Shown here in pieces: positions 2,385-31,768 of a DNA stretch of 64,000 nt. The notes below the pieces were generated by a model, which did not search any database, had not been told where the DNA came from, and saw only the letters and a program-made list of their open reading frames with translations. The stretch lies in contig NZ_UWNY01000002.1 of the NCBI RefSeq assembly GCF_900604285.1, forward strand, positions 345,818-409,817, read 5' to 3'. The position numbers were made by a program, and so were the translations under genes. Source of the stretch: Varibaculum vaginae (lineage in GTDB: Bacteria; Actinomycetota; Actinomycetes; Actinomycetales; Actinomycetaceae). Position 1 is the stretch's first letter, and each line of letters opens with the position of its first letter.

Positions 2385-3473
2385 ATGTCAACTCTGCGCG
2401 AACGGTTAGGAAGCCTACCAGCTGCCCCGGTACCCCCGGTTCATCTCGGGTTGTATTGGCGTCCTTCGCGTGAAACTGACTCCTGGAAAATCCGGGAACT
2501 GATTCATTTAACTGAACAGCATTCCCATCCTGCACGCCCCACTTCTGAGGGGGAAATTACTCGCTTAACCCAGGCGCTTAGCGATCCGGAACTGCAAGAT
2601 TGTTTGATTGGACTAGATTCGCGGGGAAATTTGGCGGCTTTTGGGTCGGTCACTTTGCAGCCGGATGAAAAAAACTATGCCCGCGCAGATCTCTTCGCAG
2701 TTACTGCCGAGCATTGGCGGGGACGTGGAATTGGTCGTGCTCTGCTGGCCTGGCAGGATGTACGTGCCCGGGAACTAATGTTGGGGTACTACGGAAAGGA
2801 TTATGACCGTCCTGCCCAAATCCGTAATGTGGTGGATGAGCGTGCCGGGGATCGGCGAAGGCTCTACGTGGCTGCTGGATTTTCAGCTCAGCGCACCATT
2901 AAGGTTTTTTCTCACCGCCTAGATTCTGCTGATATTGCTGTCTTGGAAACAAAAGTTCCCACCAAAGATGTGCGGGTTATATCTGCCCGCCGTCTCTCTC
3001 CCGATCAGTGGGAAGAGATTAAAGCCTTACACGTTGCCAATTCTGCTCGCCTATATGCTGATAAAGGGGATGCGTCGCGCTGGTGGGGGCGGGTGCTGTC
3101 AAACTTGGCTCCTGACTTGTCCTTTGTAGCTGTATCCATGAACTCTGGTCGGGTACTTGCCTATTGCCTGGTGGTTTATCGGGATCTATGTCAAAGTAGT
3201 TGCCTGGAAAGCGAGGGGGCATCCGAAGAAATAATTACCACAGTAGCGGTAGATATTTTTGGGGATGATCGCCGCAATGCAGATGAGCACGGTGTAGATT
3301 TTGCAGTATTAAAGCAGGTGCTTTCGCAGGTGCTCGTGGCTTGTGCGCGTTCAGGTTATGAACAGGTATTTGCCGAAGATAACTATCCAACACTGGGGGA
3401 TCTCTCTAAAGTATGTGGAGACTGCGGTTTTAAACTGGCGGGCGCACGCATGATTTATACGGTGGAACTGTAA
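2385..3473 (+). CDS. GNAT family N-acetyltransferase, two-domain
   Basis: Predicted acetyl-CoA-dependent N-acetyltransferase of 362 aa, about twice the length of a single GNAT fold. The acetyl-CoA loop WRGRGIGRALL is visible near residues 111-121 in the N-terminal half. The C-terminal half (about 190-362) looks like a second, more diverged GNAT domain ending in a GFKLAGARMIYTVEL-type strand. Substrate cannot be told from sequence. It is co-transcribed with the next gene, sharing one base in TAATG. The two proteins resemble each other in layout, suggesting an old tandem duplication. Confidence 0.8.
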   Translation: MSTLRERLGSLPAAPVPPVHLGLYWRPSRETDSWKIRELIHLTEQHSHPARPTSEGEITRLTQALSDPELQDCLIGLDSRGNLAAFGSVTLQPDEKNYARADLFAVTAEHWRGRGIGRALLAWQDVRARELMLGYYGKDYDRPAQIRNVVDERAGDRRRLYVAAGFSAQRTIKVFSHRLDSADIAVLETKVPTKDVRVISARRLSPDQWEEIKALHVANSARLYADKGDASRWWGRVLSNLAPDLSFVAVSMNSGRVLAYCLVVYRDLCQSSCLESEGASEEIITTVAVDIFGDDRRNADEHGVDFAVLKQVLSQVLVACARSGYEQVFAEDNYPTLGDLSKVCGDCGFKLAGARMIYTVEL

Positions 3474-4477
3474 TGAGCGGGCAGGAATGGTCGCTGCCAG
3501 AGGACACTGGAAAATATACCTGGCGTAATCTGGGGCCTGATAACGTGCCGGAAATGGGGAGCCTAATCCACCGGATTGAAGAATTTGACAATCCCCCCTT
3601 TAGAACCGCGATTTCTGAGGTTGAAGAGTTTTTTGCGGCACCGTCGCGCTGGCGCACCATTGGGGCTTTTGGCTCGGAAAATAACCTGGTTGCTTATGCT
3701 CAGGTTCGTCCGCGTCTGCTGGTGAACGAAGTGGTCTGCGAAGGTGGGGTGGATCCGCGTTATCGTGGCCAGGGATTAGGGCGAACCTCGATTGCTTGGC
3801 AGCGTGATCAGGCGCGTGCTCTCTTAGATCATGCTCGTCCTGGACGCGTCCTATTCTATGTGGAAGATATTGCCCCGGATGTCTCAGCGTTATTGCTGGA
3901 AGCCGGATATCAGCAAACTGCCTCTTTCGTGGATGTTTCCCGGGATTTGAATGATCCGATAAAACTACCGGAGCTGCCGTACCCCTTTCAAATTGTGGCC
4001 TGGAACCAGGAATTAGATGAAATGCTGCGGCATACTTTGAATCGGATTCTGCAAGATCGCAATCCCGATCCTGGATACAGCGCGGAAGATTGGGCTACTC
4101 GCCGGGGAGCTTTTACCCCAGATTGTTCTTTTGTGGCGTTAGATAAAACTACTGATCGTTCGCAGATTGCCGGTTTTGCGCTTTCTTCTATATATCGCCA
4201 AGACTGGAAAGCGGTGGGAAATCGCCAAGGTTATATTGACCTGCTGGGGTTATTGCCTGGGTGGGAAAATGCCGCCATCCTTCAGTCATTAATTGCTGCG
4301 GTATTGAAAGCATTTAATAAGCGGGGGTTCGCCACCACCGGAGCGCTCCTACCAGAGGCAGCTGATGCTTTTACCCGGCGTCTATTCTTGGAGGCCGGAT
4401 TTAAAGTTACCGGAACTTCAACCCAATATGCGATTGAGACTCCCGTATCTCTAACGGGCAATAACCACCTTGACTAG
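3473..4477 (+). CDS. GNAT family N-acetyltransferase, two-domain
   Basis: Second tandem double-GNAT protein, 334 aa. The N-terminal acetyl-CoA loop RYRGQGLGRTS lies near residues 97-107. The C-terminal half (about 175-330) has the GNAT-like pattern of an LGLLPG strand, then a long helix, then GFATTGALLPEA. Its ATG overlaps the stop of the upstream gene by one base, so the two are translationally coupled. It ends 36 bases before the convergent parC stop. The substrate is unknown. Paired double-GNAT proteins may work as a hetero-oligomer or on related substrates, but that is inference. Confidence 0.78.
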   Translation: MSGQEWSLPEDTGKYTWRNLGPDNVPEMGSLIHRIEEFDNPPFRTAISEVEEFFAAPSRWRTIGAFGSENNLVAYAQVRPRLLVNEVVCEGGVDPRYRGQGLGRTSIAWQRDQARALLDHARPGRVLFYVEDIAPDVSALLLEAGYQQTASFVDVSRDLNDPIKLPELPYPFQIVAWNQELDEMLRHTLNRILQDRNPDPGYSAEDWATRRGAFTPDCSFVALDKTTDRSQIAGFALSSIYRQDWKAVGNRQGYIDLLGLLPGWENAAILQSLIAAVLKAFNKRGFATTGALLPEAADAFTRRLFLEAGFKVTGTSTQYAIETPVSLTGNNHLD

Positions 4478-4513: not shown

Positions 4514-7093
4514 CTATCCTAGGTAATAAATCTGTCGCTTTAGCGTACTACCAGAAGCATCCCGCTTATCAGTTTGCTCAGGTAATGACAGGGGAGATCC
4601 ATCTTTGGTGAGGGCGCGTGGCGGGTTAGCGGTAATGGCCGCTAGGGACAGTCTACTTTCACCTTTTAGGAAGCGTTGACAGCGTACTCCCTGTCCGGCG
4701 CGTCCCTTCTGGGGGTATTGCAGCAAAGGAGTGACTTTCGCACTGGTCTGTCCGCTACCTGGTTCAGAAGAAGAAATACCAGCAACCGTTACTACCAGGG
4801 AAGACTCTAGGTTTTCAGCATCAACCAAAGCGGCCGCAATTATCTGATCCTCGGAGCCAAGTTTCATCCCACAAATTCCCTGACCAGAGCGGCCTTGAGG
4901 ACGTACCTTATCAGCCGGGGTGCGTAGCAGTTGCGCGGCCGAAGAAATCAGCACGAAAGTGCTGTCATCGCTGCCGCTGCCGGCTGCTACTACCTTGTCA
5001 CCAGCTTCCAAAGTGATTATCGGATAAGAATCTTGAGTAGCCAGCACCTGGGGACGAATCCGTTTAATTACCCCGTCTGCGGTTGCTGCCCACCAAATGG
5101 GTCCGTCCTCATCCAGGGGAACTAGTCCTATGACTTCCTCGCCCTCGTCTAGATTGAGCAGTCGCGAGATTGGGGGAGTACCCCGCAATGAGGGAGCTGC
5201 CGCCGAGCGCACCAACGCTGGTACTTCCAGGGCGGTGAGTTTATATAGCATTCCCCGGGAGCTAATTGCACCCACCTGGCCACGAGCGGTGGTGGGAGCA
5301 GTGGAAATAATCGTATCCCAAGGTTCACGCCCTCCCTCGGTAGTTAAAGGCTCGTGTCCAGCAAACCGTGCCACCAGGCCACCCGCCCCTAAAGTGACGG
5401 TTGCCGGCTCATCGGGAATCTCCAGCGGTGCATCTTGTTCTGCCGCCAACTGCGCGGCTCCTTCTTCCGCTAGCAGCAGCGTACGCCGCGAATCCGAACG
5501 TTTTTGCGCCACTTCCCGCAACTCGCTAACGACCAGCTCTTGGCGTTTTTCTCGGGAGGCAATTAATGCTTCCAACTCCGCGATTTCTTCGGTTAATCGG
5601 TCGCGTTCTGTCTCTAATTCCAGGCGAGAAAACTTAGTTAACCTGCGCAGTTGTAGGGATAAAATATGTTCAGATTGTACTTCATCTAAGTCGAAGGCCT
5701 CTATTAAGCGCGCTTTCGCTTGGGTGGCATCCTCGGAGGCACGAATAATCTGAATAACGTCATCAATATCGAGAACAGCGATTAGCAGTCCTTGCACCAA
5801 ATGCAAGCGTTCTTGTCGTTTGCGTAGGCGATACTGGCTGCGGCGCATCACGATTTCCATTCGGTGATCCAGGAACACCTGCAGCATTTCTTTTAAACCT
5901 AAGGTGCGCGGCTGTCCATTGACCAGAGCCACCGCGTTAATCCCGAAAGAATCCTCCATCGGGGTGTGCTTAAAGAGAGCGGCGCGCACAGCCTCGGGAT
6001 TAAAACCGGATTTCACCTCAATTACTAGACGCATATCGTGGTCTCGGTCTGTTAAGTTAGTGACCGCAGAAATGCCTTTTATCCTGCCCTTTTGAACCCC
6101 GTCTTTGATTTTTTCAATCACTTTTTCGGGGCCAATCATATAGGGTAGTTCGGTAACTACAATCCCCATTTTGCGGGCAGTAACCCGCTCAATCGAAGTT
6201 TTGGCGCGAGTGCGGAAGATTCCCCTTCCGGTTTCATAGGCTTGGCGAATACCATCCAAGCCCACAATGATTCCGCCTCCCGGCAAATCAGGACCGGGTA
6301 TAAAACGCATTAAATCTTCTACAGTGGCCTCGGGGTTTTCTAGCAGATGAATCGCTCCCGCCACCGTTTCCCCCAAGTTATGAGGAGGAATATAGGTCGC
6401 CATACCCACCGCAATCCCATTAGCGCCATTAACTAACAGGTTAGGGAACGCGCCCGGAAGCACCGCCGGCTGCATGAACTGATTATCGTAGTTAGGGACA
6501 AAATCTACTACGTCCTCATCTAGATTTGAGACCATATCTTGCGCAGCAGGAGCCATCCGCACTTCCGTATAGCGCGCCGCCGCCGGGCCGTCATCTAGGG
6601 AACCAAAGTTTCCGTGTCCATCCACCAGCGGCATTCGCAGATTAAAGTCTTGTGCCAGGCGCACAATTGCGTCATAGATAGCACTATCTCCGTGGGGGTG
6701 GAGCTTACCCATGACTTCCCCGACAACGCGTGAGCTTTTTACATGCCCTTTGTTCGGCCAAAGTCCCATTTCGCTCATCATATAGACGATGCGCCGTTGC
6801 ACCGGCTTGAGACCGTCTCGGGCATCCGGCAACGCACGCGCATAAATTACCGAATAGGCGTATTCCAGGAAGGAAGTGCGCATCTCTTCTGAGACGTCGA
6901 TATGGGTGATGTGTTCTTGGGGAATTTCATTTTCCGAAGGTCTCGGATTTTTCCTTTTGGGGCTCGCAGAAACCTTTACCGTGGCAGTACTTGCACCTTC
7001 GTTCATAGCTTTCGGTTGGTCGACTTCGCCACTAGCAGGAATAGCTGTAGAAAACAGGTCAGGCTGACGGGGTTCATTCGACTTTTTACTCAC
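4514..7093 (-). CDS. parC: DNA topoisomerase IV subunit A
   Basis: DNA breakage-reunion subunit partnering ParE. After a ~55-residue disordered lead, the winged-helix/tower domain shows [12 protein letters not shown] (99-110), [10 protein letters not shown] (132-141) and the catalytic tyrosine in [10 protein letters not shown] (Tyr175). The quinolone-determining positions hold Ser137 and Asp141, the residues usual in susceptible enzymes. A coiled coil lies around 460-540. The C-terminal beta-pinwheel repeats include [13 protein letters not shown] and GRAGQGVRC. Length 859 aa. The start is GTG with an AAGAAG Shine-Dalgarno sequence. It is convergent with the GNAT pair rather than directly following parE. 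A GyrA identity is possible but less likely given the ParE neighbour. Confidence 0.92.
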
Positions 7094-15509: not shown

Positions 15510-15526
15510 ATATCGAGAAGTAATTG

Positions 15527-16996
15527 ATGAGCGAAGTTTTATTGAAACTATTGCGTCCCGTCCACGGCGGTTACTGTCTGGCACATCGGGATGGTCAAAC
15601 CTATATGGTGCGTTTCGGGCTGCCGGGGGAACAGGTAAAAGCCGTCCCGGTTGCTAAAAAAGGCAAAGTTATTTTTGCCGAAGTCAGCGAAGTTCTTCAG
15701 GCTTCTGAGCAACGGCAAGTACCGGTGTGGGCTCTGGGTGGCCCGGCAGGAACTGGCGGGGCAGATCTTTGCCACGTGAAGCTGGCGTTCCAACGCACCT
15801 GGAAAGCGCAGGTGTTGGCGGATTGTCTGCGGCGCCTGGGAGGAGAGGACGTTTACGCGCAAGCGTTGACTGCTAGTGGGGGCGAGCTGCGCTGTGAGGG
15901 TGTAAACGCTGCGCACGCGGGCACGGGTCATCGGTGCAGAGATTCAGCTACAGGTGCCACCTGCGGTGAGGGTACGGATAACGCTAGCAGCGACGATGGT
16001 TTAGGTTACCGTTTGCGCGCTGATTTTGAGATTAGTACTGCCAAGCATCTGGCGATGACTAAGTTCCGCGGGGAAGAACTGGTAGAGATTACTAGTTTTC
16101 CCCTGGCGGATCCGATGATTAGTGACTCGTCTTTATTTAGCAACCCCGACAGCTGGAGCAAAGTTTTAAAGCCGGGAGGGCGGATTCGTACTTGGGCGAG
16201 CGCTGATGGGCTGCGGGTATGGAATGGGCACGCCCTCTTTGACGAATCGGCTCATCCGGTCGCAGAAAGGAATGTGCGTTTAACGGTTCCCGGTTTCGGA
16301 GACTACCTGGTGGCTCCGAGTGGTTTCTGGCAGGCGCATCGCCAAGCGGCACAGGTTTTGTGTGAGCAGGTAATAGCAGCAGCTACTAGTGCCCGCGTAA
16401 TGAATAGAGACGCACTTTCGCCTTCAGGTAAGGGCGTAAGAAATGGTGGATCCGGTGAGTTTGTCGATAGCAACGAGGCGAGCGGGAGTATCAAGACTAT
16501 CGGGAGTAATGACCGTCTGCTGATACCAGGTAACCGGCGCTGGGAAGAAATCCTGGAACTGTACTCAGGTGCCGGGCTGTTTTCGCGTCCTCTAGCCAAG
16601 ATTTTGGACAGGGGAGGACGGCTATCTACTTTGGAGGGGTCGAAGCCGGCAGTAAAAATGGCGCGCAAGAATCTTTCTGGAGCGCCTGGGCACCTGCAGA
16701 TCCACGCTGGGCGGGTAGATGCCCGGGCGCTCGCGGATTATGCCGACAAGATGAAGGCACCACCCCTAGTGGTAATGGATCCTCCACGCAGCGGCGCGGG
16801 ACAAAAAGTGATGGCAGCGCTGGCAAGCCTAGAGCCAGAGCGGATTATTTACGTCGCCTGCGATCCGGCAGCCCTAGCCCGCGACCTAAAAGTTGCCGTA
16901 TCCCACGGCTACCAGATTGCGTCCTTACAGGCCTACGACCTCTTCCCCCACACCCACCACGTCGAGTGTGTTGTATTGATGTCAAAAGTGGATTAG
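15527..16996 (+). CDS. RumA/TrmA-like RNA (uracil-5-)-methyltransferase with TRAM domain
   Basis: SAM-dependent RNA uridine C5-methyltransferase, 489 aa. The N-terminal TRAM-like RNA-binding segment (about 1-60) is followed by the catalytic fold: SAM loop ELYSGAGLFS near residue 345, MDPPRSGAG near 419-427 and the catalytic cysteine in VACDPAAL near 445, closing with HTHHVECVVLM. Two poorly conserved inserts (about 120-160 and 285-335, Ser/Gly-rich) lengthen the protein. The ATG at 15527 is chosen over the TTG three bases earlier because GAGAAG sits six bases before it. Its 3' end is duplicated 1,576 bp downstream and is the left edge of the accessory island. Confidence 0.87.
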   Translation: MSEVLLKLLRPVHGGYCLAHRDGQTYMVRFGLPGEQVKAVPVAKKGKVIFAEVSEVLQASEQRQVPVWALGGPAGTGGADLCHVKLAFQRTWKAQVLADCLRRLGGEDVYAQALTASGGELRCEGVNAAHAGTGHRCRDSATGATCGEGTDNASSDDGLGYRLRADFEISTAKHLAMTKFRGEELVEITSFPLADPMISDSSLFSNPDSWSKVLKPGGRIRTWASADGLRVWNGHALFDESAHPVAERNVRLTVPGFGDYLVAPSGFWQAHRQAAQVLCEQVIAAATSARVMNRDALSPSGKGVRNGGSGEFVDSNEASGSIKTIGSNDRLLIPGNRRWEEILELYSGAGLFSRPLAKILDRGGRLSTLEGSKPAVKMARKNLSGAPGHLQIHAGRVDARALADYADKMKAPPLVVMDPPRSGAGQKVMAALASLEPERIIYVACDPAALARDLKVAVSHGYQIASLQAYDLFPHTHHVECVVLMSKVD

Positions 16997-17058
16997 CAGC
17001 TGTTGTTGCGCGCTTGGATCCTTGCGCTTGTCGATTCTGATATGCGCTTGGCAACAAA
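16957..17058 (+). repeat. att-like direct repeat, copy A (3' end of methyltransferase gene)
   Basis: Roughly 100-bp sequence covering the last 40 bases of the RumA-like gene and 60 bases beyond. It begins CCACGTCGAG and recurs at 18533-18634. The stretch 16996-17058 is identical to 18572-18634 over 63 bases. The upstream part, 16967-16995, differs at about nine positions. The codons here, for HVECVV, correspond to the rum/rumA 3'-end site into which streptococcal ICEs and phages are known to integrate. Confidence 0.75.
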
Positions 17059-17316
17059 TGCGTTGTTACAGGCGTTTTAGGGTTCTCTCCATTCCAGATT
17101 GATTACAATAAACTAGATCAATATATTTACGAGAAAGCTTGGAATAAGGTGGCGGATTTGCTAAAGAAATACGCCGAGAAAGAGTTTAAGAAAAAAGCAG
17201 GAGATGTTGTTCTGAAGCAGATTATCAAATCTACTCCTGCGGGTTTTGCAGCTTGGCTAGGCGTCTACGTGGTCGGATGCGCAGCTAAAGAAGCTTGGCA
17301 CTGGTGGAGAGGTTAA
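17041..17316 (+). pseudogene. Small ORF fragment, amphipathic peptide
   Basis: An open frame from after the TGA at 17038-17040 to the TAA at 17314-17316. The coding-looking part starts near 17098 and reads as a Lys/Glu-rich amphipathic helix (KVADLLKKYAEKEFKKK), then a hydrophobic segment (STPAGFAAWLGVYVVGC), then a Trp-rich end WHWWRG. No ATG exists in frame; GTG at 17149 is the first possible start. The upstream part coincides with repeat copy A, so the original 5' end was probably lost at the junction. Its size and shape recall class II bacteriocin precursors, a weak inference. It lies five bases before the next small ORF. Confidence 0.35.
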
Positions 17317-17321
17317 GGATA

Positions 17322-17501
17322 ATGGACAAGGTCGTTCGTTTTTGCCGTGAAGTGGCGATATTCGGCTTGACGGTTGCCTTAATCGCGATGCTGATTGCCT
17401 TAATATGGGATGGCACACTTGCTATTAGAATTGGTTTTACCTCTTTTGTTGTTGGTGTCACAGTGATCTCGCTTAAGACTGTCCTTCGAAAGACTGATTG
17501 A
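17322..17501 (+). CDS. Small two-helix membrane protein
   Basis: A 59-aa protein with two hydrophobic helices, IFGLTVALIAMLIALIW (about 12-28) and IGFTSFVVGVTVISL (about 37-51), and a basic end VLRKTD. The ATG at 17322 is preceded by AAGGA, which overlaps the end of the preceding small ORF. A TTG at 17295 would add nine residues but lacks a ribosome binding site. No family is recognised. Such proteins next to an amphipathic peptide ORF can act as immunity partners or holin-like proteins, but nothing here proves it. The 178 bases between it and the transposase remnant show no gene. Confidence 0.45.
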   Translation: MDKVVRFCREVAIFGLTVALIAMLIALIWDGTLAIRIGFTSFVVGVTVISLKTVLRKTD

Positions 17502-17679
17502 ATTTTGTTTGGTTCAAGTCAATAGTTGAATATCTCACGTTGGGTGGCTATTACTGATCTCTGTCAGTAACAGTCACTTCTTTTTATGAATCTTAAAGTC
17601 AGGCTCAATGTCCGTCCTGTTTAGCCGGTGATTAGTTAGGGTAATCGGCCAAAAAGTGTGTCTATTGGTCGGCGTGTCG

Positions 17680-18528
17680 TTAACGCATAGTCCCTTTTCT
17701 GATTGAAATATCTGGATGATAGTCAGCTTTATATAAGTCAAATTCAGTGTCTAAATGAGCTGGTCCAATTGGATTATCATCAATAATAATTTTTTTAGTT
17801 TTTGGTTTAAAACATTCAGAAGTTATAAATTGTTTAGAATTTGAAGGATTTTCACTATTGAAGTAACACCACCATTCTATAGCTCTACGCATGTGATCTT
17901 CAGATAATCCTTTATGAACACTTACCAATTTCTTTATCTGTGAATTTATGCAACCTTCTAAAGTATTCGTAGTACTAGGAATAGGAACACTCGTTTTCTC
18001 TAATAGTAAAGGATCAAGAAAAGTAAACAGAGTACCATTTTTAACTTGTCTAGCAAGCAGATTATAAGCTTTTCTTGCAGTCTGATGTGTATACCACCAT
18101 TGTTGATTACTTCTTACCCAAGAAGGAATATTTTCTTCAGAAACATTCCTACGGAACGTTTTTTGGTTAAGCCGATCTTTCCACTGGTTATAAGATTTCT
18201 GTAGTAAATTAACCCATAAATCAGATTCTTTCAACGTTCTGATTTTGACTAACTTTTTAGCTAAACCCCACAAAGCCTTATGTGATTGCAGCCTAGGTTT
18301 GCTTGTAGTTAATACGCGTATATTACGTTTAATATGTACTAAACAGCGTTGTACTCGAGTCTCTGGCCAAACTTGTTTAATAGCGCTCAACGCGCCAGCG
18401 TTCCCGTCAGTAATAACAACAGTAGGAGGTAATAAATTATTAAGTAAACTCTTATATGTTTCAGTATTTTCTCTATTGCACCATTGCAAAGCAATAACTT
18501 TACCCTTGCTTACAGCGGTTAATAAACA
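17680..18528 (-). pseudogene. 5'-truncated MULE/IS256-type transposase (IS1249-like)
   Basis: Remnant of a DDE transposase of the MULE/IS256 group. Visible motifs are VITDGNAGALSAI (second Asp), RCLVHIKRN (the C-x2-H motif) and TNTLEGCINSQIKKL followed by HKGLSEDHMRRAIEWW (Glu region). The reading frame can be followed upstream through LTAVSKGKVIALQWC to 18528, where a stop and repeat copy B begin; about 100 N-terminal residues with the first catalytic Asp are missing. It cannot be active. Codon use is strongly AT-rich, unlike the flanking chromosome. Terminal inverted repeats were not resolved. Confidence 0.8.
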
Positions 18529-18532
18529 CTAC

Positions 18533-18634
18533 CCACGTCGAGACTATAGTATTGATGTCAAAGCTGGATTGGCAGCTGTTGTTGCGCGCTTGGATCCTTG
18601 CGCTTGTCGATTCTGATATGCGCTTGGCAACAAA
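18533..18634 (+). repeat. att-like direct repeat, copy B
   Basis: Second copy of the methyltransferase 3' end, offset 1,576 bp from copy A and in the same orientation. In the frame of the gene it would read HVETIVLMSKLD, a sensible alternative RumA C-terminus, so it looks like an imported allele and not a simple duplication. It cuts off the 5' end of the transposase remnant. Sequence after 18634 differs from that after copy A. Confidence 0.72.
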
Positions 18635-18845
18635 CGTATGTTTCTGTTGCCTTATCCCGTACGTTCGTTGTTGGGGATTGGCATGAATGAGAGCAGAGCA
18701 ATGAGGTGGATATCGGTCTTCGGTGCGTTGTGTTGTATGGCTCGTGCACCTTGGATTTTGTACGTTCTCTGGTAGTTTTATATAAAATTCTTTTGAAACA
18801 GCTATTTTCACATAAGTATGTGCGCGTGTGCTAAGAAAATGCCAT

Positions 18846-18860
18846 GTTACGATTCGTAAC
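18846..18860. promoter_or_regulatory. 15-bp perfect palindrome upstream of XRE gene
   Basis: GTTACGA-T-TCGTAAC is a perfect inverted repeat with a one-base centre. It lies about 145 bp before the XRE regulator, in the otherwise gene-free stretch 18640-19001. It is a candidate operator for that regulator or another repressor. Confidence 0.4.
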
Positions 18861-19001
18861 GCTTGTGTTCTCGTTCGTTCCTTTTCTATTCATATGTTGC
18901 TCGTTAGCCTGTAATTACGCAGTGCGATTATTAATTGCATTACGAGCAAAACAAATAATCGTTAAGAACGAAAACTTATGGCCAATGAAAGGAGTTATAC
19001 G

Positions 19002-19634
19002 ATGTTGTTAAGAGAAAAAATCAGAAATGCGCGCGTGGAAGCGGGTTTAACTCAGGAAGAACTTGCTGAAATGATTATGGTTTCTCGTTCTGCGGTAGCT
19101 AAGTGGGAAGGTGGGCGCGGTCTGCCGGATGTTGCAAATTTGAAGGTGATTGCGGATGCGCTGGGTGTTACTGTCGACTATTTGTTGGATAAAGACAATG
19201 CTATTGATTTGTCAATCATTAAGAAGCCTATTGATTTAGCGAAGTATGGTCTTAATGCAAAATTGGGTGTTCGTAAGAAAATCAAGATGAAGGAACAAAT
19301 TATTCGCGATGAATATGCAGATGCTGAAATTATTATGCTCACGGTGACGAAGTTTATTCCAAATTCGTCTGAAAAGTTTATGGATAATTTTATCGGGTGG
19401 ATTACTACTTTGTTTGGTGGTATTCCTTTCTTTGATACGTTTGCATTCGGTAAAGCGGTAGAGAGTATTGGCAGTGAACAGTATTACTTGGTGAATAAAA
19501 AAGAAAAGCAATTTTTTGTGCTGGTAACGGATGAGCATATTATTAGCAGAATGATGCGATTAAAGTTCACCGATAAGAAGATGCGTATTGGGGATAAGGA
19601 ATTTACACAAGTTGGTAAGTTGTGTGATAAGTAA
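19002..19634 (+). CDS. XRE family transcriptional regulator
   Basis: DNA-binding regulator of 210 aa. The N-terminal Cro/C1-type helix-turn-helix (about residues 3-60) contains LTQEELAEMIMVSRSAVAKWE, followed by LGVTVDYLLD, the usual end of the domain. The C-terminal ~130 residues form an uncharacterised domain with IIMLTVTKFI and FFVLVTDEHI strands, possibly a ligand sensor. The ATG at 19002 has AAAGGAG eight bases upstream; an ATG at 18978 would lie before this site and is less likely. AT-rich codon use and a Firmicute-like ribosome binding site indicate transfer. It stands alone, with no adjacent operon partner. Confidence 0.85.
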   Translation: MLLREKIRNARVEAGLTQEELAEMIMVSRSAVAKWEGGRGLPDVANLKVIADALGVTVDYLLDKDNAIDLSIIKKPIDLAKYGLNAKLGVRKKIKMKEQIIRDEYADAEIIMLTVTKFIPNSSEKFMDNFIGWITTLFGGIPFFDTFAFGKAVESIGSEQYYLVNKKEKQFFVLVTDEHIISRMMRLKFTDKKMRIGDKEFTQVGKLCDK

Positions 19635-20045
19635 GAACCGGTAGTTGGTTGGGAATTGGTCAGAAGAATGTGGTTTTCAGTTTTGATTTCCATATTCTCC
19701 TGATTTTTATTTTCCGCGTTCTGTACATGCTTTTAGTGTTTTTACGTGACAGTTGATCATAAGAAATGAAATTCGACTTTTACACACATATAAAAATGCA
19801 TATTCTTTACATCTAGCTAGTCTACTGAAAATATTCGACCTATGCGTCAAAAAAGTTCATTGGCACCAAGTCGTGATATTGACCATATAAAACGTTACAT
19901 TGGGCTTTTAGAAAGATATGTCATATATTGTCGAATGTTCATTATTTGTTGTTGGTAATATTTTCGATGTTTCTGCCTGCATAAAGATACGAAAGTGTGC
20001 ACTCGAAAAAGGACTGACGTACTAGGAGTTCTCTCCACTCATTGT

Positions 20046-20262
20046 GAGTGTGTTGCTTTGCTATCGCGTACGTAATGGGTGGTGCGTTTTACTCATGTAA
20101 CGCAGGGGTTTTCTGAGGGCAGGTTAAAAAGTTTGGTAGGCGGCGGCTTAGGATGATTCCCGGCGGCTTTTTTACGTGAGGTTTTTCTGTATGAGGAAAC
20201 ATAGCAACGATTTAAGGTCGAGTGCGCAGGATTTTAGCGTTAAAAGGTGCACCCACTTTGCA
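20046..20262. repeat. Island repeat, copy 1
   Basis: A ~215-bp non-coding repeat starting GAGTGTGTTGCTTTGC and containing GGCGGCGGCTTAGGATGATT and AGCAACGATTTAAGGTCGAG. It aligns with 22578-22792 almost throughout and, more weakly, with 23653-23855. It precedes the broken MBL-fold gene by about 100 bp. No open frame is conserved between copies. Confidence 0.75.
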
Positions 20263-20280
20263 CCCACCCTGCGAAGTGGG
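20252..20280. terminator. Hairpin at end of repeat copy 1
   Basis: Arms CCCACTT and AAGTGGG pair over a 15-base loop and are followed by GGTTTATAAT. The weak T-run makes terminator function uncertain. Confidence 0.3.
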
Positions 20281-20361
20281 GGTTTATAATTCTTCATACT
20301 GAATTATTCTTTGCTTTTTTGAAATAATGGTGTTTAAAAAAGGAGACTTAAAATTATCAGA

Positions 20362-20748
20362 TTGTTATATCTTTTCGATGATAAGATAAAGCCTCTTACC
20401 ATGCGGGGTAAATATTATTGTAAGCCGGAAGAAACAGGTGTGCTACAAGAAGGACTAATCTGCATCCGAGAATATGATGTAAATTTTTGGTTTTATCCTA
20501 AAAATGGAAAAACGGTTGCATTTGACAGCGGTCATATTAACTATAAGGGTATTGACGAGGAATTTCAGAAAATAGATATTATGCCGGAAAACATTAAGCA
20601 CTTGTTTTTAACGCGTTTTGATACCGATCATGCGGGCGGCATTGATAAAAGCGGGCGCAATATGTTTCCAAATGCCAAAGTTTATATGGGCGAGGAAGAA
20701 AACAAGTACTTTGTAAGCGCGCAAACTTCATCAGCCGACTTTCAATGA
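20362..20748 (+). pseudogene. Truncated MBL-fold metallohydrolase
   Basis: N-terminal half of a metallo-beta-lactamase-fold hydrolase. The first metal motif reads LTRFDTDHAGG where relatives have LTHxDxDHxGG, so the first histidine is replaced by Arg. The frame stops after VYMGEEENKYF, well before the other metal ligands. At the 5' end AAGGAG is followed by CTT AAA ATT ATC AGA, as if an original ATG start had been lost; the listed TTG start at 20362 is too far from it. The gene is almost certainly dead. The next gene begins 86 bp later. Confidence 0.7.
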
Positions 20749-20834
20749 AGAATGCCGACCGGGGAAGAAGACGATGATCATGCGTCTGCGTCTATCAAAA
20801 CTGTAAAGCCTTCATAGTCAAAGGAGTAAATAAA

Positions 20835-21773
20835 ATGAGTTTGAATTATAAACTTGCGTCAGGAATAGTGAGACTATTAAATGTCAAAAAAATGTTTTTA
20901 AAGAACAAAGAAGAAATGCTTGAGTATGCAAAGGGAGAAAATGCAAAAGAAGTATTCAATTTAGAAAAGGCACTGAAGAGGGCAAAGAGAAAAAAGTATT
21001 ATCTTTACGACAGAGATGTTATGGGATACAGGCTGATTTTATATCAAAAAAATAAGAGTCTGTCTCATGCGGCGGTTCTCTATCTCTTCGGCGGAGGAAT
21101 GATTACACAACCGAATAAGTTGGATTTTCCTTTGGCAGAAAGAATCATGGAAAAGACGGGAAAAGATGTTTGGTTTTTATTTTATCCTCTTTGTTCGGAG
21201 GATGTAAAGGTTGATAAAACCTATGAAGTTTGTTTCGAAACCTATAAGTTAATGACGGAAACTTATAAGGCAGAAAATATCAGCGTCCTTGGATTCTCGT
21301 CGGGTGCGTGCCTATCTATCGGAATTTTTTTACATAATAATGCTTTAGGTAGACCTCTTAAAATGCCCGGCAAAATTATTTCAGTTTCTCCGGGCGGAAT
21401 TCCCGATGTAAGTCTTGACAAAAATAAGGGAATATGGGAGAGGTTAAACGAACTTAATCATAGAGACATAATGATTGAACCTACATATATTAAAACTGCA
21501 AGAGAAATTTTAAAGGGAGATGAAGATTTACCGGAATATATGTTAGACGGAACGGTAGGAGATTTTACCGACTTTCCGAAAGCATATTTTTATTACGGCG
21601 AAAATGAATGCCTCTACGCCTTTGCGGGAGAATTTAGAAAAGCCATGGAAAAATACCATGCCCCCTATGAAATCGTTGTTGGTAAGGGAATGTGTCACTG
21701 CTATCCTATGGCGAGGTTTTTTAGAGAGGGAAGAGAGGCGCAGGATCAAATTGTTGAATTATTGAAATCGTAA
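20835..21773 (+). CDS. Alpha/beta hydrolase (HSL/acetyl-esterase-like)
   Basis: Predicted esterase of 312 aa. The oxyanion-hole region is LYLFGGGM near residue 80, the nucleophile elbow GFSSGA near 156 (Ser at the centre), an acidic residue lies in YYGENECLY near 257, and the catalytic-His region GMCHCYP is near 288. These positions fit the hormone-sensitive-lipase branch. No signal peptide is seen, so a cytoplasmic esterase of unknown substrate is likely. The ATG has AAAGGAG at a good distance. AT-rich, Lys-rich composition resembles Firmicutes. It is the only clearly intact enzyme gene of the island. Confidence 0.82.
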   Translation: MSLNYKLASGIVRLLNVKKMFLKNKEEMLEYAKGENAKEVFNLEKALKRAKRKKYYLYDRDVMGYRLILYQKNKSLSHAAVLYLFGGGMITQPNKLDFPLAERIMEKTGKDVWFLFYPLCSEDVKVDKTYEVCFETYKLMTETYKAENISVLGFSSGACLSIGIFLHNNALGRPLKMPGKIISVSPGGIPDVSLDKNKGIWERLNELNHRDIMIEPTYIKTAREILKGDEDLPEYMLDGTVGDFTDFPKAYFYYGENECLYAFAGEFRKAMEKYHAPYEIVVGKGMCHCYPMARFFREGREAQDQIVELLKS

Positions 21774-21919
21774 TCTAAAGATGAAGAAGAGGAATTTGGA
21801 AATGCGAGAAGTCGGAGTTCTTATTTATAGAAGGATAACTCAAGACAAATCGCCTGTTATGGATAATATGTCATCGGTGGAACGTGTGAAAAGAAGAGAT
21901 TTGAAAATCTAACCTTGTA

Positions 21920-22386
21920 ATTGAAACCGTCATTTTATGCTCTGCATTTTTTGCGCTCTGTTTTTTGGGGTACCGGCACGGACGAGAAAAATTTGAGAAA
22001 TTACATGTCCTATCCTGACGAAATTCAAAAGCAAATCAAAGAGATTGAAGAGTATCAGGTAAATATAAGGAAACAGGCAGATTCGCCGCATGAATCGCGA
22101 ATTTGTACTGTTTAGCGTTTTGTTTTAATTTTTGGAATTGTAATCATTCAGACGAACTTTATGCATAACTTTCTATGCTTGCTGATTTTAGGTGAGACGT
22201 TAAGTGCTTTTGGCCTTTTCGTTATTGATCTACTATGGTGGAGAAACGCAAAGAGGATTAGGTTATTAAAAATACCGCAAAAGGAACTCTACCAAAATCC
22301 TAAAAGCACATTGAAGCTTTTTTAAGAGCGCTGGTTTTGTATTTTTTGTCGCTGTGCTTGACGGATATCTATTGACTCTATTTTGA
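21920..22386 (+). pseudogene. Broken paralogue of the 23874 membrane-protein gene
   Basis: Translated in three frames, this stretch matches the whole intact protein encoded at 23874-24353. The pieces are IETVILCSAFFALCFLG, then GTGTDEKNLRNYMSYPDE, then LCLLILGETLSAFGLFVIDLLWW and KIPQKELYQNPK, ending in LTLF. At least two frameshifts (near 21968 and 22310) and an in-frame TAG near 22113 interrupt it. The start codon also seems lost. It follows the hydrolase gene by about 150 bp. Confidence 0.75.
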
Positions 22387-22902
22387 CCAACAACCATTGT
22401 GAGAGTGATTTATGGATATCATACGAGCCGCTCTGGTCAGAATGACAATAGCTGTAATCTTTGATATTTGACCTCCACCATTATACGACATTCTCTTTGC
22501 CGGCTTCGATCCGGCAACGATAGTTAAGGCTCTTTTCTTGATGCTGGGTTATCATCGGGGTAGTCTTGATACATTTTGAGTCTGTTGCTTTGCTATCGCG
22601 TTCGTAATCTGTGCTGCATTTTTATTCATGCAGCGCAGGGGTTTTCCGAGGGCAGGGTAAAAAGTTTGTAGGCGGCGGCTTAGGATGATTCCCGGCGGGT
22701 TTTTTAAGTGCGGTTTTGCTGTATGCGGAAACTAGCAACGATTTAAGGTCGAGTGCGCAGTATTTTAGCGTTAAAAGATGCCCCCTTTGCATACAAGTTT
22801 TCAGGTTGGAAATGAGTTTTAGGCTTATTATCCTGGTGCGAAATTGGTGGTATGTTAGTTGAATAATTAGGGTAGGCGACTCATTAACAAGGTGGTGCTC
22901 AA
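22387..22902. other. 516-bp gene-free stretch in the island
   Basis: No coding frame is supported on either strand. It contains repeat copy 2 (22578-22792). Just before the next gene, AAGGTGG could serve as a ribosome binding site. Confidence 0.5.
22578..22792. repeat. Island repeat, copy 2
   Basis: Second copy of the ~215-bp repeat. The central block, from GGCGGCGGCTTAGGATGATT to AGTGCGCAG, is nearly identical to copy 1, with short indels elsewhere. It ends about 110 bp before the DUF4097-like gene, mirroring the distance between copy 1 and its downstream gene. Confidence 0.75.
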
Positions 22903-23505
22903 GTGGCAAATATTAGCAAATTTGTGGCAAAAACGAGAGATATTAGCTTAACTGTTAGAAGAGCTGATTCTTTTAACATTAGCTATATTAATTGTGAAAA
23001 AGATATATTTGAGATAGAAGAAAATCAAGACGGAATAAAACTTGTTCAAACAGAAAAGGTTTCGGCTTTTTACTGGTTTAGGTGGCTAGTTAAAGGCAAT
23101 CCAGAAGTCATTGTTACGTTGCCTGAGAATGTTGATGTTTGTGAGATTGAAGCTGAGTCTAATCAAGTATTAGTAACAGATATTAAAGCTAACAAGATTT
23201 ATGCAGAAGTTCATAATGGCAAGGTGGAAGTAAGCAATGTTCAGGCGGATGATGTTTTTCTGAAGTGTCTTAATGGTTCCGCTGTGGCGCATAATGTTAA
23301 GGCGGTTGCTTCTTGTATGGTGGATACGTTAAATGGCACGAGTGTTTTAGAAGGCGAAATTACCAAGGATGCCTGTCTTGAAGTAGTTTGTGAGAATGGT
23401 ATTACCGAGGTTTCTGATAAGAATAAGCTCAATCTTGGGTGCAAAACAGATGGATATATTCACTATGCTGTGCATTGCTTGAATGGAAAAGCTGTAGTGC
23501 AGTAA
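22903..23505 (+). CDS. DUF4097-like beta-strand repeat protein
   Basis: A 200-aa protein with short repeated beta strands separated by turns (IEAESNQVLVTDIKAN, IYAEVHNGKVEVSNVQAD, LKCLNGSAVAHNVKA), the pattern of DUF4097 putative adhesin/beta-helix proteins. No signal peptide, membrane segment or anchoring motif is visible, so it may be intracellular. The start is GTG, preceded by AAGGTGG. Homologues in Firmicutes often sit with PspC or LiaF-like stress proteins, but none is nearby. AT-rich composition is shared with the island. Confidence 0.65.
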   Translation: MANISKFVAKTRDISLTVRRADSFNISYINCEKDIFEIEENQDGIKLVQTEKVSAFYWFRWLVKGNPEVIVTLPENVDVCEIEAESNQVLVTDIKANKIYAEVHNGKVEVSNVQADDVFLKCLNGSAVAHNVKAVASCMVDTLNGTSVLEGEITKDACLEVVCENGITEVSDKNKLNLGCKTDGYIHYAVHCLNGKAVVQ

Positions 23506-23652
23506 TAAGATTGAGGCGTTTTCCTAAAAAGATATTAAGTCAAATCAAACCTTGTAGCGATAGCTTTTCCTATCGTTAAAATGTGCACCCAATATCCATG
23601 CTGTGTATCCAAAAAGTGGAGACGTATTACCTGAGCTCTTAATTAATTTTTT

Positions 23653-23855
23653 GAGTGTGTTGTTTTCTTACCATGTGCGTAATGGGAGGTTTATTTTTCT
23701 CATGGATTGCAGGGGATTCCCGGGAGTACCGTTAAATGTTTAATCCGTGGCGGTCAATACGGGCTTACTCGCAGTTTCTGAAGCCAGTTTTATTGTTGGT
23801 GGAAACAATCAACGCTATAAACTGACTCGTGCAGGTATGTTTACTTAGTCTGCTT
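23653..23855. repeat. Island repeat, copy 3 (diverged)
   Basis: Weaker third copy. Matching blocks are TTGAGTGTGTTG, GCGTAATGGG, TGCAGGGGATTCCCGGGAG against GCAGGGGTTTTCTGAGGG, GTTAAATGTTT, and GGAAACAATCAACG against GGAAACATAGCAACG. It ends about 20 bp before the membrane-protein gene. It fills most of the gap 23506-23873, which has no gene. Confidence 0.5.
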
Positions 23856-23873
23856 CGGTGGTAGGGGACGCGT

Positions 23874-24353
23874 ATGCTTTTTATCGAAACGGTTATTTTG
23901 TGTGTGGTGTTCTTTGGGGTCTGCTACTTAGGGACTGGCACGGATCAGAAAAATTTAAAATATTACAGTTCCTATCCGGATAAAGTTCAAAACCGCATCC
24001 AAGAGATTGCCGAGTATCGCGGAAAGTTTAAGGAAACAGGGAAAGTTCGTATCTGGGTAGCAAATTTTATCGTATTTACCCTCTTATTTTTGCTTTTGGG
24101 AATCCCTATTCGCCAGGAAAACTTCGCTTATAACTTTATATGTTTGCTGATTCTGGGGCAGACCTTAAATGTTTTCGACCTGCTCGTCATTGATCTGCTG
24201 TGGTGGAGGAATAGCGAGCGGATAAGATTATCGAAAATACCGCAAAAAGAGCTTTATAGAGATCCGAAAAAGCATATCGAGGCATTTATAAGAGCGCTGT
24301 TGCTCTACTTTTTCGTGGCGCTAGTTGACGGATGTCTATTAACTTTATTTTGA
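23874..24353 (+). CDS. Uncharacterised membrane protein (intact paralogue)
   Basis: A 159-aa protein with about four hydrophobic helices: near residues 2-20, 58-76 (IVFTLLFLLLGIPI), 84-104 (FICLLILGQTLNVFDLLVI) and 140-158 (LLLYFFVALVDGCLLTLF). A conserved cytoplasmic-type segment GTGTDQKNLKYYSSYPDK follows the first helix. I do not recognise the family. A decayed copy lies 1.5 kb upstream, and both are near copies of the island repeat. No clear ribosome binding site precedes the ATG (TAGGGGACGCGT is nearest). Function unknown. Confidence 0.65.
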   Translation: MLFIETVILCVVFFGVCYLGTGTDQKNLKYYSSYPDKVQNRIQEIAEYRGKFKETGKVRIWVANFIVFTLLFLLLGIPIRQENFAYNFICLLILGQTLNVFDLLVIDLLWWRNSERIRLSKIPQKELYRDPKKHIEAFIRALLLYFFVALVDGCLLTLF

Positions 24354-24547
24354 CGAATAACTGTCAGAAGTGTTTTCTCTGGATGGGGAGTGAAAGCTGC
24401 TGACGTCCTTACAATCGCACGTGTCGAGGGAGTGTCCGCTAGTTTTGAAAGGTTTCATCCAATTAACAAATCTGTGTGCTGGTTGCAGTGGAAGAGGTAT
24501 TTATAGCAAAACACGAAAAATGGTGAGCAGCCGCATAGTTACCTAAG

Positions 24548-24576
24548 TTGATAACAGTTCTCATTACTGTTAAGTT
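24548..24576 (+). promoter_or_regulatory. znu promoter with palindromic operator
   Basis: TTGATA (24548-24553), a 17-base spacer and TAAGTT (24571-24576) form a good -35/-10 pair. A perfect inverted repeat, TAACAGT (24552-24558) and ACTGTTA (24566-24572), overlaps both elements. Read on the minus strand, GTAATGAGAACTGTTATC matches a classical Fur-family box at 13 of 18 positions by my hand alignment. It is a probable Zur-type zinc repression site controlling znuA onward. Confidence 0.62.
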
Positions 24577-24627
24577 TTTTGAACGAAACAAGTAATTTGC
24601 TGAGCGAAACTCAAAACGGTTAGGAAA

Positions 24628-31427: not shown

Positions 31428-31605
31428 GCAGCCAGCCCACAGTATCCGGGGAGGCAAAAGCGCTCGGGGGACCCGGTGATTCTTGCAAGATATAAGACAA
31501 GGGCAAAATAGGAAACCATCTGGAGGAGAACGTATCCGATTCTGAAGGTAACGATTTATGTCCTGTCCCCTCTCGCATCTTTTACCGTGCCCAGAGTTTT
31601 GCTGC
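31428..31605. repeat. Palindromic repeat unit 1 after acnA
   Basis: Left arm CCGGGGAGGCAAAAG (31446-31460) continues as CGCTCGGGGG. The right arm, TCCCCTCTCGCATCTTTTACC, ends near 31592. The centre holds about 100 bases of unrelated sequence. The outer flanks (CAGCCCACAGTATCC and GAGTTTTGCTGC) also match unit 2, so the unit is larger than the palindrome. Confidence 0.6.
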
Positions 31606-31651
31606 TATAGCGGATTTCATCACAGCGAATAATGTGTAAATCGCTATAAGT

Positions 31652-31768
31652 AGGTAGCAAGCCCATATTGTCCGGGGCGGCAAAAGCGCTCGGGGGATCC
31701 CGGTGAGCCTTGCTTCGCTCGGCTCAAGCCCCCTCTCGCATCTTTTGCCACCCCGGATTTTGCTGCCC
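31652..31768. repeat. Palindromic repeat unit 2 after acnA
   Basis: Compact copy. CCGGGGCGGCAAAAG (31672-31686) pairs with CTTTTGCCACCCCGG (31742-31756) with one mismatch. A nested TGAGCC/GGCTCA pair (31704-31709, 31721-31726) forms the tip, so the unit can fold into one long hairpin. The two units together occupy most of the 399-bp gap between acnA and the ClC gene, which contains no coding frame that I can support. Confidence 0.65.

Follow-up and report, generated by a model that had tools for sequence, protein, structure and literature searches.

In streptococci, ICEs with a single serine integrase insert at rumA, while integrase triplets have been reported at mutT, traG, and hsdM, not rumA (PMC4701971). 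CIMEs, also described in streptococci, are decayed elements arranged in tandem at the 3′ end of a single gene (PMC7563491). On the phage side, the closest described system is vB_Gva_AB1 (hereafter AB1), a temperate Gardnerella phage obtained by induction of a clinical strain (PMC7996455); a narrow literature search found no publication linking Gardnerella, a prophage, and rumA. Here, we analyze a 64,000-nucleotide stretch of Varibaculum vaginae (the window; genome G000, contig 5, positions 345818-409817), which we compared with relatives that include Varibaculum cambriense. We conclude that its rumA-znuA region is, with high probability, a graveyard of elements, namely AB1-related phages together with one or more others, that integrated site-specifically, one after another, at the rumA 3′ end.

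The 3′ end of rumA is the integration target. The gene (positions 15524-16996, + strand) encodes a 490-residue RumA/TrmA-type RNA (uracil-5-)methyltransferase ending in ...FPHTHHVECVVLMSKVD*, as supported by a PF05958 match (E 2e-16) and by synteny in relatives. Between it and znuA lie 7.5 kb of AT-rich DNA containing at least five tandem att-like sites, designated A (16958), B (18534), C (~20036), D (~22573), and E (~23645). From 16958 to ~24545, a stretch referred to below as the island, the GC content is 37-43%, versus ~48-57% in the surroundings. The content of the island is different in each relative, while both flanks are syntenic. Its right edge, on the znuA side, is at 24542-24545, where synteny with G001, G002, and G005 resumes. 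A preliminary description of this DNA had suggested looking in relatives for the empty site; none was found among those compared, all of which have at least 1.25 kb between rumA and the znuA side. Elsewhere in the window, pieces of the intergenic stretch 31441-31765 match relatives at more than one place and represent a repeated element.

The same description had reported that 16957-17058 recurs in the same orientation at 18533-18634, with 63 identical bases, and this repeat is real. The two copies form a same-strand direct repeat matching at 95 of 102 bases; all seven mismatches fall within the first 39 bases, and the final 63 are an exact run, after which identity breaks off abruptly. By comparison, 100 shuffles of 15525-24600 gave exact repeats of 15 bases at most, and a whole-genome search with copy A found copy B with E = 1.9e-38. 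The repeat had been equated with the 3′ end of the methyltransferase gene. The gene end is indeed included, but rumA stops at 16996 and 62 of the 102 bases are therefore downstream of it. Nor does copy B encode another legitimate RumA end, as had been proposed, since its TAG stop codon is mutated to TGG and the frame stays open (HVETIVLMSKLDWQLLL...); the counterpart of copy B in the sister species G004 retains TAG. Two copies in the same orientation could in principle result if recombination, homologous or illegitimate, had simply duplicated the rumA 3′ end in tandem. However, A and B have unrelated left flanks, homology running from the core onward, the B copy is present without A in G004, and phages bear the same site. 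Tandem duplication, to which we attach almost no probability, was therefore rejected.

The repeat is part of a larger series. A repeat finder identified three more related blocks of ~230 bp at 20025, 22557, and 23632, whose fronts are GAGTGTGTTGCTTTGCTATCG or similar, a decayed rumA end resembling one in G001. The earlier idea of tandem att remnants left by serial integration thus has the support of relatives and phages, but its two sites were too few, at least five being present. We built HMMs for the left arm, the right arm, and the core from viral sites, and took as null the best score in 200 shuffled islands (4.2 bits for the right arm, 11.1 for the left arm, and 10.9 for the core). Site A (16958-17058, +) joins the body of rumA to a core, CACGTCGAG...GTATTGATGTCAAAA, and a right arm that we call type X. 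Site B (18534-18634, +) has a core and a type-X right arm behind a transposase remnant. Both cores match the rumA 3′ end present in related phages (30.5 bits for A and 28.5 bits for B); those of C, D, and E are degenerate. A phage left and/or right arm is found beside the core at C, D, and E but not at A and B. An additional site at the left-arm-like GTTCTCTC near 17081 received no support from the HMM and was discarded.

Between A and B, the segment 17059-18533 contains two small ORFs (frame 17041-17313, and 17322-17501) and the C-terminal part of an IS256/IS1249-type (Mutator) transposase (17680-18489, − strand), which matches PF00872 from profile position 227 of 379, with 34% amino acid identity to IS1249. 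The N terminus of the transposase is gone, the remnant breaking off at or near the B core. When sought in 59 genomes, this segment was found in its own genome only and was missing from the 58 others. Site B is followed by an HTH regulator gene (18978-19634, +; 218 residues; PF01381), within a module common to G004 up to ~19735.

Site C (19990-20311, +) is composed of a type-1 left arm (19990-20035; 19.2 bits), a degenerate core (~20036-20075), and a phage right arm (20092-20311; 99.5 bits, E 8e-30). Its module contains a truncated metallo-β-lactamase-fold-like ORF (20338-20748, +), with a weak PF00753 match (E 0.003) under the cut-off for that family, and an α/β hydrolase gene (20835-21773, +; PF07859, E 2e-11). 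In site D (22479-22798, +), a type-3 left arm (22479-22572) precedes a degenerate core and a phage right arm (22636-22798; 49.2 bits). This left arm is 85% identical to viral contig L109 over 94 bp and 80% identical, over 88 bp, to that of a B-like site in G004. The DUF4097 gene of module D (22903-23505, +) encodes a protein with 60-62% identity to the product of the gene right of attP in seven viral loci (six contigs), and 82% to that of L120. Site E (23529-23819, +) has a type-1 left arm (23529-23643), a degenerate core (~23645-23680), and a decayed phage right arm (23709-23819; 22.0 bits). The left arm of E scores 11.6 bits, barely over the null, but is 80% identical over 117 bp to a left arm in G004. 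At the right edge is a gene for a 159-residue membrane-protein-like product (23874-24353, +), which also occurs in G004 and G003 and has a decayed copy at 22116-22322. As already noted in the preliminary description, no integrase or recombinase is left: the island has no trace of the phage recombinases and no serine recombinase beside any site. For this reason, we class the island as a remnant rather than an intact prophage.

When the island was compared with phage records, the single match was AB1. The rumA 3′ end of this phage, CACGTCGAGAGTGTCGTATTGATGTCAAAGGCTGATTAG (L051:7904-7942), is 87% identical to A over 39 bp, lies 120 bp past ORF52, and continues into a right arm of the kind seen at C and D. 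AB1 encodes three serine recombinases, ORF47, ORF49, and ORF51, and its rumA-type core is downstream of all three. In the AB1 record, NN stands exactly at the start of a second right-arm copy (L051 ~5978), which is perhaps an assembly join across a repeated att. A pattern scan of viral contigs for the core gave 16 stretches in 13 contigs, and the phage arms are common to 11 viral (IMG/VR) contigs, most of which have the order LSR (large serine recombinase), ORF48, LSR, ~210 bp, core, right arm, and DUF4097. The left arm in most of these contigs is type 1, ending in ...GGAGTTCTCTCAATC directly before CACGTCGAG, and the right arm is uniform. A second left arm (type 2), ending in CTAA(C/T)AATCT, is found in AB1, L100, and the Streptococcus phage Javan105, and a third (type 3) in L109. 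Contig L114 presents a real attL, with an integrated left end within a different RumA gene. The window thus has in common with AB1 and its relatives the rumA 3′ end as an attP-like core, the right arm (at C and D), the DUF4097 gene, which in the relatives is right of attP, and the type-1 left arm (at C and E). In contrast to these phages, it retains arms and cargo only, without recombinase or phage structural genes, and the cargo protein is 60-82% identical.

Javan105, an S. constellatus prophage, carries a core (CATGTTGAGTGTGTTGTATTGATGTCAAAAGT; L118:4015) nearly identical to that of site A. It shares the ORF51/ORF52 pair with AB1, the homologues having about 71% amino acid identity, but it differs from the window in its type-2 left arm, its cargo, and its host, which is from another phylum. 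The earlier statement that the rumA 3′ end serves as an integration site in streptococci agrees with the published ICEs (PMC4701971) and with the attP-like site of Javan105.

Other searches gave little. No plasmid matched the island, and the phage attP, compared with 297 genomes of the class, was found in the window's own genome only. The HTH protein of module B has no match in viral contigs, and in phage records only its HTH domain matches. In genomes of the family, AB1 ORF51 has one decayed match (G121), in a 3.4-kb locus without a RumA match or att core. Contig 4 of G000 (L081) contains a prophage with a serine recombinase pair adjoining type I restriction genes; this pair, just 40% identical to ORF49 and part of a prophage with no rumA-type att, was rejected.

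The preliminary description had also proposed searching relatives for a recombinase-bearing element at the same site; G004 holds one in decayed form. In G004, rumA passes through the core into a phage right arm (E 5e-78), followed by a DUF4097 gene whose protein is 98.5% identical to a viral one. At 3.2-3.8 kb downstream are the broken C terminus of a recombinase (3.2-3.6 kb; 90% identical to AB1 ORF49), a type-1 left arm (E 4e-17), and a second core, which is ~207 bp past the recombinase C terminus, a spacing as in the phages. This locus consists of the attL and attR of a decayed prophage. Inside the prophage stretch, a site with the second left arm is present at L011o:4062 (L011o is L011 reversed). 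Site 8445 combines the third left arm with the type-X right arm, followed by the HTH module; the 1.2 kb starting at site B of the window are 97.5% identical to this part of G004. Two genes in L011 (reversed, 3005-3974) encode proteins 98.5-99% identical to viral contigs, which points to a phage recently shared between this genus and the hosts of those contigs.

Across these loci, the arms change partners at the CACGTCGAG end of the core. Since three kinds of left arm and the chromosomal rumA itself meet this same end, the junctions look like products of site-specific recombination at or just after CACGTCGAG. Such arm swapping might also reflect an integron-style cassette platform, in which phage recombinases would move single-gene att-bounded modules in trans. 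The modules do hold one gene and measure about 1-2.5 kb, left and right arms have recombined among sites, and the order of the HTH and DUF4097 modules differs between the window and G004. However, decay of whole phages accounts for the same pattern, a scrap of recombinase is retained in G004, and we observed neither free nor newly moved single modules, so we consider the platform improbable. We give just as little credence to the idea of a living docking array at the Varibaculum rumA 3′ end, in which phage recombinases would pass single-gene cassettes from one tandem att site to another and which shared phages would link to Gardnerella and streptococci.

A more serious rival, which concerns A and B and not C-E, is that these two sites come from a conjugative or mobilizable element at the same target (an ICE/IME remnant, or CIME). 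The type-X right arm was searched for in viral contigs and not found, being seen only in the window genome and G004. In G003, the rumA frame encodes 560 residues and continues (L052 reversed, ~1855-2184) into a C-terminal extension of ~80 residues unlike the phage arms, a free-standing relative of which starts at G004 L011o:4065; the likely source of this extension is an inserted element of another kind. Because streptococcal ICEs with a single serine integrase have been reported to target rumA (PMC4701971), and because of this other C-terminal extension, the founding element of A and B is possibly an ICE or IME. Yet no conjugation gene was seen in the A-B segment, and the left arm that accompanies the type-X arm in G004 is type 3, a kind also present in viral contig L109. 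We therefore regard a conjugative or mobilizable origin of A and B as plausible, if somewhat short of probable. The streptococcal rumA ICEs resemble the present system in target gene, serine integrase, and changed RumA C terminus. They differ in having a single serine integrase with the att inside its gene, whereas the phage attP here is ~210 bp past the end of ORF49, outside the recombinase pair. Longer second copies of the rumA 3′ end also occur downstream of rumA in G001 (L014 reversed, 2641-2860; 60 bp of the gene) and G003 (L052 reversed, ~4640-4800; about 130 bp). They are not of the phage arm type, and an AB1-type attP would not produce them.

Serial integration, our preferred reading, probably proceeded as follows. 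AB1-related temperate phages, and at least one other type of element, carry a copy of the final ~40 bp of rumA, which acts as attP and adjoins serine recombinase genes. Recombination in the His-Val-Glu codons, at or just after CACGTCGAG, would insert the element, whose own copy would give rumA a new 3′ end, so that the gene would remain intact. Later elements would each land in an already existing site. The element bodies would afterwards be deleted, so that att sites and individual cargo genes would remain one behind the other: site A; site B, followed by the HTH module; site C, by the hydrolase module; site D, by the DUF4097 module; and site E at the right edge. The recombination was presumably performed by AB1-type serine recombinases, which are taken as the enzymes because they adjoin attP. 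The order of the integration events is conjectural, and deletion is the presumed route of decay; we infer the loss of phage bodies from G004. Several observations speak against serial integration by such phages: the type-X arm was not found in viral contigs, the A-B identity ends after 63 bp, cores C-E are decayed, the relatives compared have no empty site, the left arm of E scores near the HMM null, and G001 and G003 have long rumA copies.

Like CIMEs and tandem composite islands (PMC7563491), the array strings together decayed att-bounded modules, of about 1-13 kb, at the 3′ end of a single gene; five att-like sites are kept, and a recombinase was not found. However, CIMEs derive from ICEs or IMEs, and in the window at least three sites, C-E, bear phage arms. 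The rumA-znuA array shows the CIME pattern in an actinomycete, with phages as its main source, and as such is a well-documented case of a known phenomenon. What was a puzzling repeat now documents how phages integrated repeatedly at a single gene. It points to a group of phages with paired serine recombinases whose apparent target is the rumA 3′ end, a matching site being present in a streptococcal prophage. This site and these recombinases are candidate integration tools, and candidates for tracing how DUF4097, HTH, and other cargo genes move between hosts of the Gardnerella and Varibaculum types.
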